From positions 1 to 22,318 of the IMG/VR virus record IMGVR_UViG_3300029448_000488: a stretch of 22,318 bases of DNA. The stretch is one strand, 5' to 3'. Both the position numbers and the translations under genes were made by a program. Source of the stretch: a virus. The notes beneath the pieces are model-generated. The model had not been told where the DNA came from. It worked only from the letters and a program-made list of their open reading frames with translations, and searched no databases. Below are positions 1,243-6,688 of the stretch, in pieces. The first letter of the stretch is position 1. Every line of letters starts with the position of its first letter.

Positions 1243-1899
1243 GTGGCGAATAGATCGTTCTTACTGACAACTTATGTTCTTTATCACCACTTGGATAAGG
1301 TAAAAGGTCAGGCAAAGAGCAACTGCATCAATGTTTATATGTCTATTATGAAATATGCGTGGAAGCGGAACAATTATGAGTGTGGTTTAAGGCATAGCAC
1401 GATTGCAAAGGACACAGGTCTTTCTAGGTCTACCATTCACCGCACTTTGCTCACACTTGCCAAGCTAAATATACTGAAGATGATTAAAGGTAGGTCAGGA
1501 AAAACCTATCGTATAAATGCCGCATTTTTAGTACCTGAAAAGACTGGTATGTATAAATCTGACACATCAATGTATCAAATTGACACAAACAATGTGTCAA
1601 ATATACAGACATTAGAAGAACAATATATAACATTATACAATATACTTAAATCAGATAAAGATAAGTATGAAAAGATTGAACTGTTAAGTACACTCCCCCT
1701 TGCTGATCTTCAAAATAATTTAAAAAGAAATCCTTATTATATAAAGGAAGCCATCGCATTAAAAAGGGAAAACGAAAAGCCGAAAGTGGAACTGAATGCA
1801 GGTGCGGTGATGAAAAACTTAGCTAAAAAGAAGAACCCTTATTATGCGATGAAGAAAGCATATAATATTAGAAACAACATTAAACCATGGGAGGATTAA
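1243..1899 (+). CDS. Winged-helix (HTH_36-like) DNA-binding protein
   Basis: This 218-residue protein has a clear winged helix at residues about 45-95. LRHSTIAKDTGLSRSTIHR forms helix-turn-helix, followed by a third helix 'TLLTLAKLNILKMIKG' and a wing with 'RSGKTYRI'. This matches the HTH_36 type common in phage and plasmid replication-initiator-like proteins. The C-terminal half (100-218) is a charged linker with a short helical region, and it carries no recognisable helicase-loader motif. The start is GTG 1243 with AGGT 7 nt upstream. It lies between the nuclease-like gene and the terminase-side genes. It could act in replication initiation or as a transcription regulator. I cannot decide between these. 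Confidence 0.65.
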   Translation: MANRSFLLTTYVLYHHLDKVKGQAKSNCINVYMSIMKYAWKRNNYECGLRHSTIAKDTGLSRSTIHRTLLTLAKLNILKMIKGRSGKTYRINAAFLVPEKTGMYKSDTSMYQIDTNNVSNIQTLEEQYITLYNILKSDKDKYEKIELLSTLPLADLQNNLKRNPYYIKEAIALKRENEKPKVELNAGAVMKNLAKKKNPYYAMKKAYNIRNNIKPWED

Positions 1900-2596: not shown

Positions 2597-2812
2597 TTAA
2601 TTTAATTTATTTTTATTTTTTTTTATTTTCATTGCCAATGAACTAATTTTTTGTGATGTTTTAGATCTTACATTAAACTTTTTTTCTAGTTTAAATTCAG
2701 TATCCCAAATATCAAGCAAAGAAATAAAACCATTTTTATTTTTAGAAATTTTATCAAATTCTTTGTAGATAAAATTAATCATTTTTAATTCTTTTTTTTC
2801 TTTCGCTTTCAT
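2597..2812 (-). CDS. Small basic protein, unknown function
   Basis: This 71-residue, Lys-rich protein (MKAKEKKELKMINFIYKEF at the N-terminus, ending KKNKNKLN) is mostly helical by composition. No family is recognised. It is the last gene of the leftward cassette. Its stop abuts the terS stop, so the two genes converge without a gap. ATG 2812 overlaps the upstream stop (TAATG), with GAGG about 7 nt before it, which indicates coupled translation. The U-rich stretch just beyond (2597-2635) has no GC-rich hairpin, so I do not call a terminator. Confidence 0.5.
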   Translation of the reverse strand: MKAKEKKELKMINFIYKEFDKISKNKNGFISLLDIWDTEFKLEKKFNVRSKTSQKISSLAMKIKKNKNKLN

Positions 2813-3051
2813 TACGCTACCTCTTTTTCATAGATGGTTTTATAATTATATTCATCGTTTACTTTGATGATGTCTATTCTTGTTTTTTTTATTTCATCTC
2901 CATCTTCAACCCACTTTGGATTTTCAATTTCATTATCAATCATACCCAAAGCTGATTGTTTAGATGTAGCGGTTACAGTCCAGCGATAAACAATTTCGCA
3001 GGTGTAATTCTTCCACTCACAATTTTTATAATCGTTTTTATTTAGTTTCAT
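2812..3051 (-). CDS. Small protein of unknown function
   Basis: This 79-residue protein begins MKLNKNDYKNCEWKNYTCE. The segment 'CEIVYRWTVTATSKQSAL' followed by 'IENPKWVEDGDEIKKTRIDIIKV' looks like a small alpha/beta fold. Its strand, 'A-short-side-chain' helix and strand order resembles small DpnD/PcfM-like proteins (a beta strand, then 'A.s..eA......'). That resemblance is weak. It has a good ribosome site, GAAAGGACCAACA, before its ATG, one of the repeated leaders of the cassette. The stop overlaps the next ATG. Confidence 0.5.
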   Translation of the reverse strand: MKLNKNDYKNCEWKNYTCEIVYRWTVTATSKQSALGMIDNEIENPKWVEDGDEIKKTRIDIIKVNDEYNYKTIYEKEVA

Positions 3052-3232
3052 TGTTGGTCCTTTCGTTGTTGTTATTTTGTTTTAATTTCTTGTATATCAT
3101 TTTTATAGATAGATCAAGATAATCTTTTTTTAATTTATTAACGCACATCTTTTTAAATAAACCACCACCAGACCAACAGTTCAAAAAGGTATCGCCTTTT
3201 AATTTGTTGATCTGATTGGTGGTCAATTTCAT
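3038..3232 (-). CDS. Small basic protein, unknown function
   Basis: This 64-residue, strongly basic protein begins MKLTTNQINKLKGDTFLNCW and has Gly-Gly-Gly-Leu-Phe in the middle. It ends in an Asn-rich tail (NNNNERTNNETK) encoded by the leader of the next gene. ATG 3232 overlaps the upstream stop (TAATG), and no separate Shine-Dalgarno is seen, so it probably depends on coupling. No family is recognised. Confidence 0.45.
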   Translation of the reverse strand: MKLTTNQINKLKGDTFLNCWSGGGLFKKMCVNKLKKDYLDLSIKMIYKKLKQNNNNERTNNETK

Positions 3233-3426
3233 TAGTTTGTTTTTTTAATATACGTTCCGTTATATTTATAAAAAGAATTATCTATTCTTTTATAATTTTT
3301 ATTTAAGTATCTCATGCAAGATAGAACAGATTTAAAACTTTCAATTTCTAAATCTAAATCTTTCCTTTCCTCAAACAATATAACTTCATTATCTCTTTCT
3401 ACTATTCCTAAATTATATTTTTTCAT
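3232..3426 (-). CDS. Small protein of unknown function
   Basis: This 64-residue protein begins MKKYNLGIVERDNEVILFEE. It has a pair of likely beta strands followed by a helix (SFKSVLSCMRYLNKNYKRI), and the layout suggests one small alpha/beta domain. A GAAAGGGAAATAAA leader precedes the ATG. That leader is also the coding end and stop codon of the 38-residue gene upstream. No family is recognised. Confidence 0.5.
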   Translation of the reverse strand: MKKYNLGIVERDNEVILFEERKDLDLEIESFKSVLSCMRYLNKNYKRIDNSFYKYNGTYIKKTN

Positions 3427-3427
3427 T

Positions 3428-3544
3428 TTATTTCCCTTTCTTTTTTGTTTTTTTTATTAGCTTGATTGTATTAGCAACAGTCATTGTCTTAGGCACAATG
3501 ATGCCGTATTTTTTGGCGAGTTCTTTTTGTATTGAGTATTTCAT
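3428..3544 (-). CDS. 38-residue basic peptide, unknown function
   Basis: Reading leftward from ATG 3544 gives 38 residues: MKYSIQKELAKKYGIIVP, then TMTVANTIKLI and a Lys-rich end. 'IQKELAKKYGIIVPKTMTV' could be a short helix-turn-helix-like segment, but the protein is too small to be sure. It is preceded by GAAAGGATAAT, the recurrent cassette leader. Its final codons (Lys-Gly-Lys-stop) form the leader of the next gene. The good ribosome site and fit between neighbours (1-nt gaps) support a real gene. Confidence 0.5.
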   Translation of the reverse strand: MKYSIQKELAKKYGIIVPKTMTVANTIKLIKKTKKKGK

Positions 3545-3545
3545 A

Positions 3546-3740
3546 TTATCCTTTCAGTTGTTTATTAATAATTTTATTTTCATTACTAATAATGTTTTTA
3601 CATTTTTTTTTAAAAAGTTTTTTTGCTTCAGTTAAATTATAACCAATATACCTTTCTTTTATGTAAAGCTCATGACCATATTTATTCATGATGAAATCAC
3701 TTAAAGTAAATCCATCAACATTATGTTTATTTATAATCAT
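3546..3740 (-). CDS. Small protein of unknown function
   Basis: This 64-residue protein begins MIINKHNVDGFTLSDFIMNK and continues with 'GHELYIKERYIGYNLTEAKKLFKKKCKN'. The strand, 'G.....A...F' helix order resembles a small alpha/beta unit, with 'Y-x-x-x-E-A-x-x-x-F' typical of a helix. It ends Gln-Leu-Lys-Gly-stop. Those last codons (AAAGGATAA) are the ribosome site of the next gene. A GAAAGGATAAAACAAA leader precedes its own ATG. Confidence 0.5.
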   Translation of the reverse strand: MIINKHNVDGFTLSDFIMNKYGHELYIKERYIGYNLTEAKKLFKKKCKNIISNENKIINKQLKG

Positions 3741-3762
3741 TTTGTTTTATCCTTTCTGTTGT

Positions 3763-3849
3763 TTAAAATTTTTGATCTACTTTGGTTAACACATAATAAC
3801 TTACAATAGCTGTTATAACTAAGATTAATATTCCAAGAACTGTTGTCAT
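3763..3849 (-). CDS. 28-residue single-span membrane peptide
   Basis: The peptide starts MTTVLGILILVITAIVSYY and ends with a short polar tail (LTKVDQKF). About 18 consecutive hydrophobic residues would span the inner membrane once. Its ATG overlaps the stop of the preceding gene in a TAATG, which strongly suggests coupled translation. Possible roles for such phage peptides include small holin-like or membrane-altering proteins, but the sequence shows only the membrane segment. It is shorter than usual gene-calling cutoffs. Confidence 0.5.
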   Translation of the reverse strand: MTTVLGILILVITAIVSYYVLTKVDQKF

Positions 3850-4001
3850 TATGCTACCTGCCTTTCAACAATTACTTTTTTAATTCCTTTACCATTTTTA
3901 TATGGAATTATTTTATATGGTGTTTTACTTTCTTGAGCTGTTTTTTGTAATTCTTTTAAATACAAATTCCAGTCGTTAGCTATTGTTTTTTGTTGTTGCA
4001 T
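3849..4001 (-). CDS. 50-residue basic protein, unknown function
   Basis: Reading leftward from ATG 4001 gives 50 residues. They begin MQQQKTIANDWNLYLKELQK and end 'KKVIVERQVA'. The N-terminal half is likely one helix, and the second half holds two short strands. A GAAAGGTAATACA leader (one of the repeated cassette leaders) gives a clear start. The stop overlaps the ATG of the 28-residue membrane peptide, so the two are probably co-translated. No family is recognised. Confidence 0.5.
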   Translation of the reverse strand: MQQQKTIANDWNLYLKELQKTAQESKTPYKIIPYKNGKGIKKVIVERQVA

Positions 4002-4024
4002 TGTATTACCTTTCTATTGTTGTT

Positions 4025-4246
4025 TTAATATTGAACTCTAATAAATTCATTATTATCATTGTAAATAGGAACACCATCTACAACTCTATAATAAGAAATT
4101 GATTTAAAAGAGCTGTGTTTTTTTAGTTCGTTTTTCTTTGGTGTAAATGTTGCATAACCAGTACCAAAGATTGAATTGAAATTAACATATTGAGTATCAA
4201 ATTTACCCTCTTTATTAATTCCATAACACTCAAAGTATCTTTGCAT
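4025..4246 (-). CDS. Small protein of unknown function
   Basis: This 73-residue protein begins MQRYFECYGINKEGKFDTQY and has many aromatic residues. It contains 'GTGYATFTPKKNELKKHSSF' and ends 'DNNEFIRVQY', so it is likely beta-rich. I chose ATG 4246 because it follows a strong GAAAGGATAAAACA leader. An upstream ATG at 4285 lies inside the -10 region of the candidate promoter (4276-4301) and is therefore unlikely. It is the first gene of the second leftward transcription unit. Confidence 0.55.
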   Translation of the reverse strand: MQRYFECYGINKEGKFDTQYVNFNSIFGTGYATFTPKKNELKKHSSFKSISYYRVVDGVPIYNDNNEFIRVQY

Positions 4247-4275
4247 TGTTTTATCCTTTCGTTGTTTATCTGTCG

Positions 4276-4301
4276 TATATATCAATTTTATATATAGTCA
4301 A
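4276..4301 (-). promoter_or_regulatory. Candidate leftward promoter for genes 4246 to 2597
   Basis: On the minus strand TTGACT (4301-4296) is followed after 14 nt by TATATA (4281-4276), with TG one base before (extended -10). With the alternative -10 TATACG the spacer is 16 nt. It lies about 30 nt upstream of the first gene and right after the terminator of the upstream unit. Its sequence closely parallels the promoter at 4822-4848. Confidence 0.55.
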
Positions 4302-4337
4302 TAGTTAAAATTAAAAAAAATAAAATTATTTTAAGCA

Positions 4338-4375
4338 TAAAAAAACCCCTGTTAAAAATTAATCTAACAGGGGTT
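4338..4375 (-). terminator. Rho-independent terminator of the 4788-4390 unit
   Basis: An 11-bp perfect stem (4344-4354 with 4365-4375; AACCCCTGTTA and its complement) with a 10-nt loop is followed, on the minus strand, by seven T. It sits 15 nt after the stop of the gene at 4390. The plus strand lacks a T tract after the stem, so the terminator acts leftward. Confidence 0.85.
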
Positions 4376-4389
4376 AATTTGTTTATTGG

Positions 4390-4584
4390 TTAATTATTTT
4401 TAGCGTAATTGTCGCAATGTTTTTCAGCTTCATTGATTGTCTTAACATTATAAACTGTAAAGCAATCTATTTCTTGATCTCTAACGCCTATCTCATCAAT
4501 AGGATAAACATTGAAAGTTGCTCCTCCATGCCAATCAATTTCAAAGAAATCATATTTAAAAGTTGTTTTTATTTCTTGTGCCAT
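4390..4584 (-). CDS. Small acidic protein, unknown function
   Basis: This 64-residue protein begins MAQEIKTTFKYDFFEIDWHG and contains 'FTVYNVKTINEAEKHCDNY'. Strands followed by 'INEAEKHCDNYAKN' resemble the compact proteins in which a beta sheet is closed by an 'eAe..C..ya' helix, seen in several small phage proteins of unknown role. GAAGGATAAAACAAA precedes the ATG, and the last codons of the upstream gene form that leader. The terminator at 4338-4375 follows it. Confidence 0.5.
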   Translation of the reverse strand: MAQEIKTTFKYDFFEIDWHGGATFNVYPIDEIGVRDQEIDCFTVYNVKTINEAEKHCDNYAKNN

Positions 4585-4590
4585 TTTGTT

Positions 4591-4788
4591 TTATCCTTCC
4601 ATTACTTGTTTAATTTCTATTATCTCATCTTGATAAACACAATTTGAACTTTTCCAGTCATTAATCCTTTCAAATAAATCTTTAAGATCATTTGAAAAAA
4701 AATGATTTAATTTTACATCATTTTCTTTTTTGTATTTAACAATGTAGTTGTAAAAACCATTAATTACTTGTGGTTTATTTTTTGTCAT
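4591..4788 (-). CDS. Small protein of unknown function
   Basis: This 65-residue protein begins MTKNKPQVINGFYNYIVKYK, contains 'LKDLFERINDWKSSNCVYQ' and ends in 'Val-Met-Glu-Gly'. Its last codons, GAA-GGA-TAA, are the ribosome site of the next gene. GAAAGGTAATAAA precedes its ATG. It is the first gene of the leftward cassette and lies downstream of the candidate promoter at 4822-4848. No family is recognised. Confidence 0.5.
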   Translation of the reverse strand: MTKNKPQVINGFYNYIVKYKKENDVKLNHFFSNDLKDLFERINDWKSSNCVYQDEIIEIKQVMEG

Positions 4789-4821
4789 TTTATTACCTTT
4801 CGTTTCATTGTTTTAAATATC

Positions 4822-4848
4822 AATATATCAGATTAATATATAAGTCAA
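4822..4848 (-). promoter_or_regulatory. Candidate leftward promoter for genes 4788 and 4584
   Basis: TTGACT (4848-4843 on the minus strand) is followed by a 15-nt spacer ending in TGA and by TATATT (4827-4822). This extended -10 arrangement parallels the promoter at 4276-4301 and the rightward one at 100-127. It lies 34 nt before the first gene of the cassette. Confidence 0.55.
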
Positions 4849-4978
4849 TACATAGAATTAAATTAATTTAAAAATATTATTGGTGTTGAAAGTTGCTATT
4901 CTTATCAAGACATCGCCGCATCCATTTCTCACAACATCAGCAACGGCTCAATAATATTTAAGACAACCTATAATATAT

Positions 4979-5003
4979 TTCCGATACTGTTTAGTTATCG
5001 GAA
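4979..5003. repeat. Inverted repeat, 8-bp arms
   Basis: TTCCGATA (4979-4986) and TATCGGAA (4996-5003) are perfect reverse complements separated by 9 nt. Neither strand has a convincing T tract after the stem, so an operator or RNA hairpin is more likely than a terminator. Confidence 0.7.
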
Positions 5004-5056
5004 CTATATTTATTAAGAAATATGTTGTTGTATTTTTGCAACAGTTGTTTTTTTAG

Positions 5057-5095
5057 ATTGGCGACCCCCCTATACCCCACAAAATGGTCGCCGAT
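5057..5095. repeat. Inverted repeat, 10-bp arms with C-rich loop
   Basis: ATTGGCGACC (5057-5066) pairs with GGTCGCCGAT (5086-5095), with one G-T wobble. The 19-nt loop is very C-rich (CCCC, TATA, CCCC). The right arm runs into the direct repeat CGATATAT (5092-5099, 5101-5108). It is about 320 bp before terL. Confidence 0.65.
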
Positions 5096-5130
5096 ATATA
5101 CGATATATTACATGGGACTGTAGGACACCT

Positions 5131-5174
5131 TTACACGAACACACACACCCCACACCCCACAAACAACCCACACC
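5131..5174. repeat. CA-rich low-complexity tract
   Basis: On the plus strand the stretch consists almost only of A and C (CACACACC, CCCCAC and similar units). The minus strand is correspondingly G/T-rich with three runs of three or more G, and two further G runs lie in 5065-5078. Such strand-biased tracts occur at phage packaging sites, origins or G-quadruplex-forming sites. Confidence 0.6.
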
Positions 5175-5181
5175 TTTTCCT

Positions 5182-5209
5182 TTGCTAGACCTCCTTTTCA
5201 AAATAATAT
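5182..5209 (+). promoter_or_regulatory. Candidate rightward promoter for the packaging/head genes
   Basis: TTGCTA (5182-5187), a 16-nt spacer and TAATAT (5204-5209) lie 19 nt before the gene at 5229. Each box matches four of six consensus bases and there is no extended -10 TG, so this is weaker than the three TGA-TATAT promoters. Its place at the head of a long rightward gene run is the main support. Confidence 0.35.
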
Positions 5210-5228
5210 TTTACTATATGTAGTAGGT

Positions 5229-5417
5229 ATGGATGAGTTTGATACTAAAGATATTAAATCAGTCGTTTACATTGATCCTAAAACAAACAATGTGGTGATT
5301 AAGATTACAGGTTTACCTAATGAAATGACCTCTATGATGTATATGGATTGGGTCATGGCAAGTCTTGGTTTTGAATATAATCCAGATAACAACTACGTTA
5401 CAGACACTGTTCACTAA
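5229..5417 (+). CDS. Small protein preceding terminase large subunit
   Basis: This 62-residue acidic protein begins MDEFDTKDIKSVVYIDPKTN. It continues 'VVIKITGLPNEMTSMMYMDW', a strand-strand-helix pattern, and ends in an Asp/Asn-rich tail. It resembles small proteins placed directly before terL in marine podoviruses. The function is unknown to me. Its TAA overlaps the terL ATG by one base (TAATG), which implies coupled translation and perhaps matched stoichiometry with the motor. AGTAGG lies just before the ATG. Confidence 0.65.
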   Translation: MDEFDTKDIKSVVYIDPKTNNVVIKITGLPNEMTSMMYMDWVMASLGFEYNPDNNYVTDTVH

Positions 5418-6688
5418 TGGAAGCTAAAATAGAATACACCCCTAGAAAATTTCAAAAGTATATACACTATCGTATCAATCAATATCGTTGGTCAGTGCTA
5501 GTTTGCCATAGAAGGTTTGGCAAAACCGTCTGTATGATTAATCATTTGATACGATCTGCAATGACGAGCAAACTCAAGAACCCTAGATTTGCTTATATTG
5601 CTCCAACCTTTAAACAAGCCAAATCTATTGCTTGGGATTACATGAAACAGTTTACCCAAAAGATACAAGGTACAAGATTTAACGAAACAGAACTTAGAGT
5701 AGATTTACCCAATGGTGCTAGAATTACCTTACTAGGTTCAGAGAACTGCGATGGATTAAGGGGTATTTATCTTGATGGTTGTGTGATTGATGAATATGCC
5801 AACGTCAATGAACGATTGTTTCCAGAGATTATTAGACCTGCACTCTCAGATAGAAAAGGTTACTGCGTATTTATTGGAACACCTCAAGGAATGAATAATA
5901 ACTTCTATGAGCTTTATCTTCATGCACAATCCGCAGACGATTGGTTTCATTACAAAGCCAGAGCCTCAGATACGAAGATTGTAGATCAAGAAGAGTTAGA
6001 TGCTGCACAAGCCATTATGGGTGAAAATAAGTTTAAGCAAGAGTTTGAATGTGAGTGGACGGCAAACATTGAAGGTGCAATTTATGGCAAGACCATAGCA
6101 GATATGGAGAACAGCAGACAAATTACTCGTGTGCCTTATGATCCTTCCTTGCCTGTCTATACCGCTTGGGACTTAGGGGTCTCAGATCACACGGCGATTA
6201 TCTTTTGGCAGCAACTAGGCAGATCCATTAATATTATAGATTACATTGAAGAACGAGGTCAGGGTTTACCTTTCTTTGTTCAGCTGATTAAAGAAAAAGA
6301 TTATGTCTATGCAGATCATTATGCACCCCATGATATTGAAGTGACTGACTTTGGTAATGGTAAGACCCGTAGAGAGGTCGCTTATCAATTAGGGGTGAGG
6401 TTCAAAGTCGTTCCAAAATTACCCCTAGAAGATGGAATACACGCAACCAGTATGTTGTTGCCAAGAGTTTGGATTGATGTAGATCATTGCAAAAAACTCA
6501 TAGATGCGTTAAGACATTATCACAGAAAGTACATAGACAAGAACAGGATGTTCAGATCTAAACCTGTACACGATTGGAGTAGTCATGCTTGTGATGCTAT
6601 GAGGTATCTTGCAGTTGGACTACAAGAACTTAATACTAGACAAACTGCACCACAAAGTGTAGCAGATAATGAATACAGGATTATATAA
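5417..6688 (+). CDS. terL: Terminase large subunit (packaging ATPase/nuclease)
   Basis: This 423-residue motor cuts concatemeric DNA and pumps it through the portal. The N-terminal ATPase has Walker A CHRRFGKT (30-37), Walker B GCVIDEYAN (121-129, Asp125-Glu126) and the coupling motif IGTPQG (153-158). The C-terminal RNase H-like nuclease has AWDLGVSDHTAIIF (250-263, Asp252), a middle acidic position in YADHYAPHD (298-306) and HDWSSHACDAMRY (385-397, Asp393). Length and motif order are those of a complete podovirus TerL. It starts by TAATG overlap with the small gene before it. The small subunit is unusually distant (ends at 2596). Confidence 0.95.
   Translation: MEAKIEYTPRKFQKYIHYRINQYRWSVLVCHRRFGKTVCMINHLIRSAMTSKLKNPRFAYIAPTFKQAKSIAWDYMKQFTQKIQGTRFNETELRVDLPNGARITLLGSENCDGLRGIYLDGCVIDEYANVNERLFPEIIRPALSDRKGYCVFIGTPQGMNNNFYELYLHAQSADDWFHYKARASDTKIVDQEELDAAQAIMGENKFKQEFECEWTANIEGAIYGKTIADMENSRQITRVPYDPSLPVYTAWDLGVSDHTAIIFWQQLGRSINIIDYIEERGQGLPFFVQLIKEKDYVYADHYAPHDIEVTDFGNGKTRREVAYQLGVRFKVVPKLPLEDGIHATSMLLPRVWIDVDHCKKLIDALRHYHRKYIDKNRMFRSKPVHDWSSHACDAMRYLAVGLQELNTRQTAPQSVADNEYRII

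Follow-up and report, generated by a model that had tools for sequence, protein, structure and literature searches.

The locus analysed here raises the question of what a long gene-free stretch is for when it lies between two oppositely directed transcription units of a phage. We studied the whole of a 22,318-nt window (IMG/VR record IMGVR_UViG_3300029448_000488, positions 1-22,318), which by its sequence is a fragment of an HTVC010P-type pelagiphage, a phage of the ocean bacterium SAR11. Its TerL shares 83.7% identity with that of HTVC034P and 82.7% with that of HTVC010P, and its late genes follow an order like that of the isolates. The plus strand carries an O-like replication initiator gene (1243-1899; phrog_678, 5.4e-7) and an Sf6-type terS (2111-2596; phrog_1482; PF20901 at 39.3 bits, with a curated cut-off of 27). 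The small genes of a leftward cassette come next on the minus strand (2597-4788, from the gene layout), followed by the gene-free stretch (4789-5228) and, on the plus strand again, by the late operon, which opens with a 62-aa ORF (5229-5417) and continues with terL (5417-6688; phrog_2, 5.7e-38; no Pfam match). In the window, terS and terL are thus separated by the 2.2-kb leftward cassette. The terS of the window overlaps the preceding ORF by about 200 bases, and in 8 of 11 genomes the TerS open frame extends 105-210 nt 5' of the annotated start, adding a helix-turn-helix-like part.

A sequence-only reading had described positions 4861-5228 as gene-free, dense in signals and flanked by divergent transcription, and had suggested an origin, a packaging site or a switch between the leftward cassette and the late genes. 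The setting was described correctly: no ORF of at least 50 aa occurs between the start of the leftward gene (4788) and the ATG at 5229, and oppositely directed genes flank the stretch. The signals themselves exist in the window, but relatives keep only some of them, and among the functions offered the packaging site fits best, the origin and, as the main role, the cassette switch being unsupported. Our analyses suggested that the stretch probably starts packaging or late gene expression rather than genome copying.

Taken alone, the window sequence does hold more signals than expected by chance. The 368-nt interval folded with z = -4.0 as single-stranded DNA and -3.1 as RNA, and none of 100 shuffles was as good in either case. 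Perfect arms of at least 7 bp with at least 3 G-C pairs gave three entries (two being the same hairpin), which 2 of 200 shuffles matched, and an exact 8-mer repeated at a spacing of 8-12 nt was seen in 9 of 300 shuffles. Both reported inverted repeats are present as well. The first consists of TTCCGATA and TATCGGAA (4979-4986/4996-5003), with 15-nt arms that are 93% complementary; the second is a G+C stem, GGCGACC/GGTCGCC (5060-5066/5086-5092), around a C-rich loop. When conservation in close relatives was examined, the first repeat proved to be kept, but the G+C stem (5060-5092) was not and is, as a stem, peculiar to this phage. The tandem CGATATAT pair was likewise found at 5092 and 5101, but it is special to this phage, relatives mostly showing a plain TATATATATA run in its place. 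As for the 11-mer said to be shared with a promoter, GATATATACGA occurs at 5093 and on the minus strand at 4273, but the promoter status of that other copy was unsupported. It is one of 22 shared 11-mers, mostly A+T words; the shuffle mean was 9.8, and 22 was reached in 3 of 200 shuffles.

What relatives retain is a chain of short blocks. In the alignment of relatives selected by TerL, the chain starts with AAGTTGCTATTCT, CTCRC...CGG, the dyads and a T-rich stretch, after which comes a tract of C or G whose end is TATACCCC(A)AAAA, followed by a short RYCGC arm, a run of alternating A/T and finally CATGGGACTNNAGGACWCCYTTA. In the window, the plus strand carries conserved block A, AAGTTGCTATTCT (4890-4902; alignment consensus aAaguUgcuAUucu), conserved block B, CTCACAACATCAGCAACGGC (4928-4947; consensus cUcgc...A.CGG), and a C-tract with its arm, CCCCCCTATACCCCACAAAATGGTCGCC (5065-5092), which by eye is kept as a sequence type, some relatives having a G-tract instead of the C-tract. 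The core block (TATATATA-CATGGGACTNNAGGACACC; 5093-5133, plus strand) comprises the alternating A/T run and then CATGGGACTGTAGGACACCTTTA (5111-5133), which contains GGAC-N4-GGAC.

In all 11 genomes scanned (the 10 complete isolates and the window), the core block was the single best-scoring site and occupied the homologous place, as scored by a position matrix built from 41 unique sites that included the window and several isolates and left out Greip, Lederberg and HTVC024P. Next-best scores were far lower in most genomes; the margins were modest for HTVC024P (3.3 vs -6.5) and Greip (9.8 vs -3.0) and small for Lederberg (6.1 vs 2.6). In each of the 10 complete isolate genomes, the block core stands once, upstream of a 61-63-aa ORF and terL. 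Among the matches listed, the distance from block to terL is mostly 260-350 nt and that from block to terS about 1.1-4.3 kb, TerS and block both having been found in 201 of the 349 loci with any match. According to annotation tables read by eye, the block-bearing gap is the longest intergenic gap in 9 of 10 isolates; in HTVC010P this gap spans the record ends, and in Lederberg a predicted 40-aa ORF (gp26) overlies the block. Four block types were distinguished, namely I (CATGGGACTNNAGGACWCC), II (NACCGGACTTGAGGACACC), III (CATGGATAATTTC) and IV (CATGGGATTT). Types III and IV retain the TATATATA-CATGG part only, and six of the 10 isolates (HTVC035P, HTVC100P, HTVC204P, Greip, HTVC024P and Lederberg) have lost the block's right half (GGAC...). 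The type I block had no exact pattern match in a collection of genomes covering 84,980 species of bacteria and archaea. A search with a 23-base pattern recovered at least 120 stretches; conservation counts over these contigs were not used, because that search selects type I. A leader ORF inside the block (ATG GGA CTC GAG GAC) was set aside, since in our own reading some variants have CTG TAG and others lack the ATG. In many relatives (L022, L032, L033, L044 and others), rightward hairpins resembling intrinsic terminators, with T-runs (such as CCCGG...CCGGGTTTTTTT), were seen about 200-300 nt upstream of the block; by eye, they are absent from the window.

The first inverted repeat belongs to a second conserved element, a dyad of the form GATAA-N7-TTATC. 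In the window, the TTCCGATA/TATCGGAA dyad (4979-5003) has the core GATAC-N7-TTATC at 4983-4999, one mismatch from this form. Across 65 unique HTVC010P-type regions, we counted 31 exact dyads with N7, 6 with N6, 3 with N8 and none at the other spacings from 2 to 14, and 68 unique HTVC106P-like regions gave 33 exact N7 dyads vs 0-13 at other spacings, the lineages in both counts not being independent. Of 11 genomes, 9 have an N7 dyad with at most one mismatch close to the block; it is absent there in HTVC010P and in Greip, which has an exact copy with N6. The dyads of relatives lie 106-170 nt (mostly 106-139) from the block. The flanks of the dyad showed no covariation, as 71 of 165 outer pairs were complementary vs 66.5 with flanks exchanged. 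Because the spacing is fixed and the flanks do not covary, the dyad suggests protein-binding DNA, an operator, rather than an RNA hairpin.

The same observations bear on whether the stretch acts as a structured RNA, that is, a leader, a small RNA or a packaging RNA. The fold z-scores of the window sequence would agree with such a role. However, Rfam gave no match at gathering thresholds, and RNAalifold on 56 relatives reached -11.5 (plus strand) and -15.0 kcal/mol (minus strand), weak values with unfavourable covariation terms (+10.1 and +10.4); the folds consisted chiefly of the dyad or of a helix within the invariant block. Covariation of the arms, the check once proposed for the hairpins, failed to appear in the dyad flanks or in the G+C stem, where a stem of at least 6 occurred in 13 of 64 relatives, at the level of chance (11.9 expected when arms were exchanged between genomes). 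Conserved RNA or hairpins were thus rejected, and we consider a structured RNA highly unlikely.

The position of the element was then compared with two other lines. In HTVC106P and HTVC028P, the order is TerS, a non-coding gap, an ORF of similar size and TerL, all in one direction and uninterrupted by a leftward cassette (for HTVC028P, two record ends were joined to read it, and L442 and other contigs show it unjoined). TerL identity is 47% for HTVC106P and 60% for HTVC028P. Their TerS proteins scored 36.1 and 67.2 bits, respectively, against PF20901, which places them above the cut-off together with those of the window and Lederberg; HTVC010P TerS, with 25.7 bits, falls just under the cut-off of 27. 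Measured from the last open frame of at least 100 codons, the gap between terS and the ORF was 286-343 nt in 9 of 12 HTVC106P-like loci and 219-251 nt in 10 of 11 HTVC028P-like loci, 4 of these 23 loci giving no value. Dyad counts covered 71 of 81 HTVC106P-like loci (80 fetched plus HTVC106P) and 49 of the 80 fetched HTVC028P-like loci, those with short upstream DNA and many more distant ones having been dropped. In some HTVC106P-like loci (among them L365, L369, L374, L385 and L386), coding sequence occupies that distance before terL. The core pattern was found in only 28 of 70 HTVC106P-like loci; of the 27 unique loci with a core, 22 have the dyad, whose usual positions relative to the core are about -121, -131, -153 or -163. 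These positions step by roughly one or two helical turns, although a small number of lineages could be enough to produce such a pattern. HTVC028P-like phages lack the dyads, with one exact N7 dyad in 42 unique regions.

Similarity of the DNA itself varied with the pair compared. The dyad regions of L032 and the HTVC106P-like L362 aligned with a score of 74, the maximum of 500 shuffles being 32; none of 500 shuffles was as good for L079 vs L362 either, and one was for the window vs L362. The similarity was weak for the window vs HTVC106P (11 of 500 shuffles) and for HTVC010P vs L362 (24 of 500). Among HTVC028P-like DNA, the window vs L442 stood out (3 of 500), and the other four of five tests (the window vs HTVC028P and three HTVC010P-type regions vs L442) were not significant. 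The parts of PMC10504331 available to us give TerL as the one core gene shared with HTVC106P. Since HTVC106P-like phages carry the dyads without a leftward cassette, although only terL is reported as shared, the element by its sequence belongs to the terminase module, and the dyads go with this module and not with the cassette. That HTVC106P-like phages keep dyads between terS and terL with no such cassette also speaks against a switch between cassette and late genes as the main role of the stretch.

The ORF after the gap appears to be part of the same arrangement. Of 43 loci examined in the three lines, 41 carry a counterpart of the 62-aa ORF, and in an alignment of 37 ORFs the window was 12-25% identical to the other lines, with Gly28 invariant. 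A terminal His was also invariant, partly by selection, since only ORFs of 52-72 aa with a His at one of the final three positions had been picked; the HTVC106P and HTVC028P counterparts, as annotated, end in His as well. The predicted model is beta-beta-alpha and of modest confidence (mean pLDDT 77, pTM 0.52). The ORF had no family match, and a known fold was not recovered, comparison of the model with the PDB giving no match at E <= 0.001. From its conserved place, the product is possibly a third protein of the terminase module.

An origin of replication in the gene-free stretch would make the A/T run an unwinding element, with flanking repeats bound by the O-like protein, a DnaA_C-like protein or host DnaA. 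The core is A/T-rich, an 18-bp, 1.9-copy C/A-rich repeat lies at 5140-5174 of the window (by eye not seen as such in relatives), and 8 of 10 isolates have their detrended cumulative GC-skew minimum no more than 650 nt from the block. Detrended skew was used because, without detrending, the minimum shifts with the point chosen to open the circle. However, the skew reflects the coding strand and not fork direction, since the operon from O to TerS (0.05-0.13) has the same sign as the late genes (0.08-0.12). The consensus of the DnaA box is TTWTNCACA. One such word lies within -500 to +250 of the block in 5 of 11 genomes; however, boxes do not cluster there, each of the 11 genomes having 0 or 1 in this range, and the word occurs nowhere in the window.

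A better origin candidate lies elsewhere. Repeats within gene O mark the lambda-type origin, and the O-like gene of this phage similarly bears 22-bp repeats in 2.5 copies (1549-1602, plus strand), which lie about 3.5 kb to the left of the gene-free stretch. TRF detected 21-22-bp tandem repeats in the O-like gene in 2 of 11 genomes, the window and HTVC034P, and the best internal repeat of this gene, scored without a shuffle control, had a lag of 21-22 and started at nt 307-340 in 10 of 11 genomes, HTVC203P being the exception. The repeat sequences differ between isolates. Judging from sequence, these repeats are possibly a lambda-type origin, and the gene-free stretch was set behind them as an origin; we regard an origin there as improbable. 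In HTVC034P (L003), the repeat ATGGGTATTAAAGAACACCC at positions 307-366 of the O-like gene resembles the CATGGGACTCGAGGACTCCC block of the same phage; the likeness was not seen in the other genomes looked at and may be chance.

Control of the late genes has to be weighed more closely. With the late operon starting at 5229, to the right of a cassette read the other way, a rightward late promoter very likely lies in this interval. A late-promoter-like segment, TTGCTAGACC ... TACTATATGTAGTA (5182-5225, plus strand), stands before the late operon, and by eye many, not all, relatives show TTGCCAGACC ... ACTAGATRTRGTATATG; in our own reading, the segment has no good -10. The leftward cassette has a sigma-70-like promoter of its own at 4848-4822 on the minus strand (TTGACT, 15 nt, TATATT; 10/12), just outside the interval 4861-5228. 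It is matched in L005, L006, L008 and L009 by TTGAC[TA], 16-17 nt (spacing by eye) and TATATT or TATAAC. A TATGTATTGAC box at the leftward promoter was observed to be common to four close relatives. Host promoters would be expected, because Skadi-1 is described as encoding no RNA polymerase in the available text of PMC10504331.

The whole stretch might accordingly serve late-operon control only, with the dyads as operators and the CATGGGACTNNAGGACACC block and A/T run as an activator site or promoter. In that case, expression of the 62-aa ORF, terL and the structural genes would be switched on by a regulator of phage or host origin, and the leftward cassette would be read from its left-edge promoter. 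Several observations fit: the late operon follows an opposed cassette, a separate leftward promoter-like site exists, a fixed dyad spacing with no covarying flanks is typical of a dimer operator, GGAC-N4-GGAC resembles a direct-repeat activator site in our own reading, block similarity tracks the adjacent terL, and Skadi-1 lacks its own polymerase in that same partial source (PMC10504331). Against this, no sigma-70 pair (15-19 nt spacing, at least 9/12 matches) covers 5093-5133 in the window, the search being for sigma-70 pairs only, and none is evident by eye over the block in relatives. The dyads, 106-170 nt from the block, are far for a usual activator. Furthermore, because HTVC106P-like phages share the dyads, yet terL is reported as the sole common core gene in the text available (PMC10504331), a common phage regulator would be required unless the host supplies one. 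Finally, a gap of 219-343 nt persists where terS and terL are co-directional and a new promoter is not strictly needed. We hold late control alone to be a plausible account, only slightly less probable than the packaging reading, though one that we would not expect to prevail.

If the stretch serves packaging, the ends of the virion genome might lie in it. A cos site or fixed terminal repeat, with the block marking the physical ends of a linear genome, would suit a block that heads the late operon, and single contigs agree with it: L004 begins inside the block and L099 stops 3 nt past it. With true contig ends defined by manually entered cut-off lists, 1 of 52 true left ends in the TerL set lay inside the block (L004) and 1 of 52 lay 70 nt before it. 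In the pattern set (109 of the at least 120 stretches, loci already in the set and the HTVC010P record being left out), the true contig ends within 100 nt of the block numbered 1 of 88 on the upstream side and 4 of 91 on the downstream side among the matches listed, and 9 of 91 downstream ends were within 200 nt, again among the matches listed. This mild excess downstream would reflect assembly breaks at a shared word. In HTVC106P-like phages, 3 of 53 true left ends (L363, L402 and L425) fall in the right part of the terS-terL gap. However, end positions were not common to the contigs, most of which continue through the block, and in 12 long contigs with the exact core (of 21 searched) the block positions were scattered and only once near an end. 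No sharp end was seen in HTVC106P-like or HTVC028P-like contigs (partly by eye), nor in the HTVC010P-type or long contigs, and a cos site was set aside on this evidence. The Skadi-2, Greip and Lederberg records are circular, although fixed ends might go unnoticed in concatemers from cells.

Virion contigs would be expected to break at a single base if the phage used a cos site, and since the ends are scattered, fixed ends at the block are not indicated; the contig ends are weak evidence against them, as cellular DNA could run through cos. Isolate record ends were not used, because six records (HTVC034P, HTVC035P, HTVC024P, HTVC100P, HTVC203P and HTVC204P) have the first base of an annotated leftward gene as base 1 and look like rotations. 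For Skadi, the accessible part of PMC10504331 describes 4 of 9 circular contigs as carrying 125-bp end repeats, derives the ends from assembly repeats and coverage, and places terL within the terminal repeat region. In OP131302 (Skadi-1) and its relatives, such 125-bp repeats could be assembly overlap and not physical ends. Taken together, we judge a cos site or fixed terminal repeat very improbable.

A packaging-initiation site with no fixed ends fits these results best and remains a candidate. We tentatively propose that about 4890-5228 is a pac-type packaging-initiation region of a headful phage, probably overlapping late control as in SPP1. Late in infection, TerS, alone or with a helper (a host DNA-bending protein or the 62-aa ORF product), would bind two kinds of site: the GATAA-N7-TTATC dyads and, mostly 106-139 bp to their right, the C-tract/CATGGGACTNNAGGACACC block. 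The A/T run that immediately precedes the block would bend or open, and TerL would be placed at the block and make the first cut. Packaging would then proceed headful by headful along the concatemer, leaving no fixed genome ends. Headful packaging, the binding protein, the TerL cut site, the direction of packaging and the promoter overlap are what we infer for this phage. The proposal draws on a single conserved site linked to the terminase genes (best site in 11 of 11 genomes, near terL in all 10 complete isolates scanned) and on the presence of the dyads in the terS-terL gap of HTVC106P-like phages. It also takes in the steadier distance to terL than to terS, the preferred N7 spacing, the similar dyad-region DNA of the two lines, the cassette-free layout of HTVC106P-like and HTVC028P-like loci, the length of the gap that bears the block and the SPP1 precedent. 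Headful packaging fits the scattered contig ends, and the Sf6-type TerS suggests it as well, because Sf6 is a headful packager, as stated in the available text of PMC9611059.

The correlation of the block with the terminase genes runs against the pac reading. Over 71 loci, block similarity correlated with TerL similarity (r 0.61) but not with TerS similarity (r 0.03; partial -0.22, a value reached or exceeded by 500 of 500 permutations), whereas a site recognised by TerS should track TerS. As terL adjoins the block, the TerL correlation is possibly due to linkage alone. By TerS type, the 43 loci with an HTVC010P-type TerS and a block (60 fetched, the rest without TerS or block) were all of type I, and the 43 loci with a Lederberg-type TerS and a block (80 fetched) comprised 8 of type I, 14 of type II, 16 of type III and 5 of type IV. 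The negative partial correlation speaks, indirectly, against TerS as the partner of the block. Also against the pac reading, HTVC028P-like phages lack the dyads and in most tests show no significant DNA similarity, HTVC010P and Greip have no N7 dyad within one mismatch, and contig ends mark no sharp terminus. The missing right half of the block in six isolates, the limited recovery of the core pattern in HTVC106P-like loci, the gp26 ORF over the Lederberg block and the location of P22 pac within terS weigh on the same side.

Comparison with known systems places the candidate pac region near SPP1 by its layout rather than by sequence homology. In the parts of PMC6316719 available, SPP1 pac (pacL-pacC-pacR) is one cis region heading the late genes, with separated sites around a cutting zone, and it overlaps late promoters in a headful packager; the equivalent features here are predicted from sequence. 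Unlike SPP1 pac, which overlaps the start of terS in the same partial source, the site adjoins the 62-aa ORF and terL, and terS is about 1.1-4.3 kb off behind an opposed cassette (among the matches listed). The phage resembles P22 and Sf6 in having a TerS of the Sf6 family (PF20901) and contigs with no sharp ends. Nevertheless, P22 pac is a 22-bp sequence inside terS, according to the accessible text (PMC9611059), whereas the conserved site here is outside terS. Like lambda cos, the site is conserved DNA ahead of the terminase large subunit and the structural genes; unlike lambda cos, it shows no sign of fixed ends in the contigs. A bolder version, which we regard as rather doubtful, is that the terminase is a three-gene module (TerS, the 62-aa ORF product and TerL) with a two-part packaging site of helically phased dyads and a single-copy CATGGGACTNNAGGACACC block, which would travel with terL between phage families and have TerL, the 62-aa protein or a host factor, rather than TerS, as its main recognition factor. 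The gap between terS and the site would then be an insertion spot for a variable opposed cassette.

HTVC010P-type phages are reported as the second most abundant known group of pelagiphages (PMC12753301, in the part available). The portions of literature searched, which did not include the genome paper (10.1099/mgen.0.000596), held no mapping of their replication start, packaging start or late control, and those on Alteromonas phage ZP6 and Ochrobactrum phage OH offered nothing decisive. As a kind, the element is a terminase-linked control site. Two features are unusual in the sequences compared: terS and the site are separated by a variable opposed cassette, and two phage lines have the dyads in common. 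If the element is the packaging site, its split from terS by such a cassette would be an unusual layout. The element offers a short, testable target for studies of packaging and late expression, and the O-gene repeats offer a separate target for replication.
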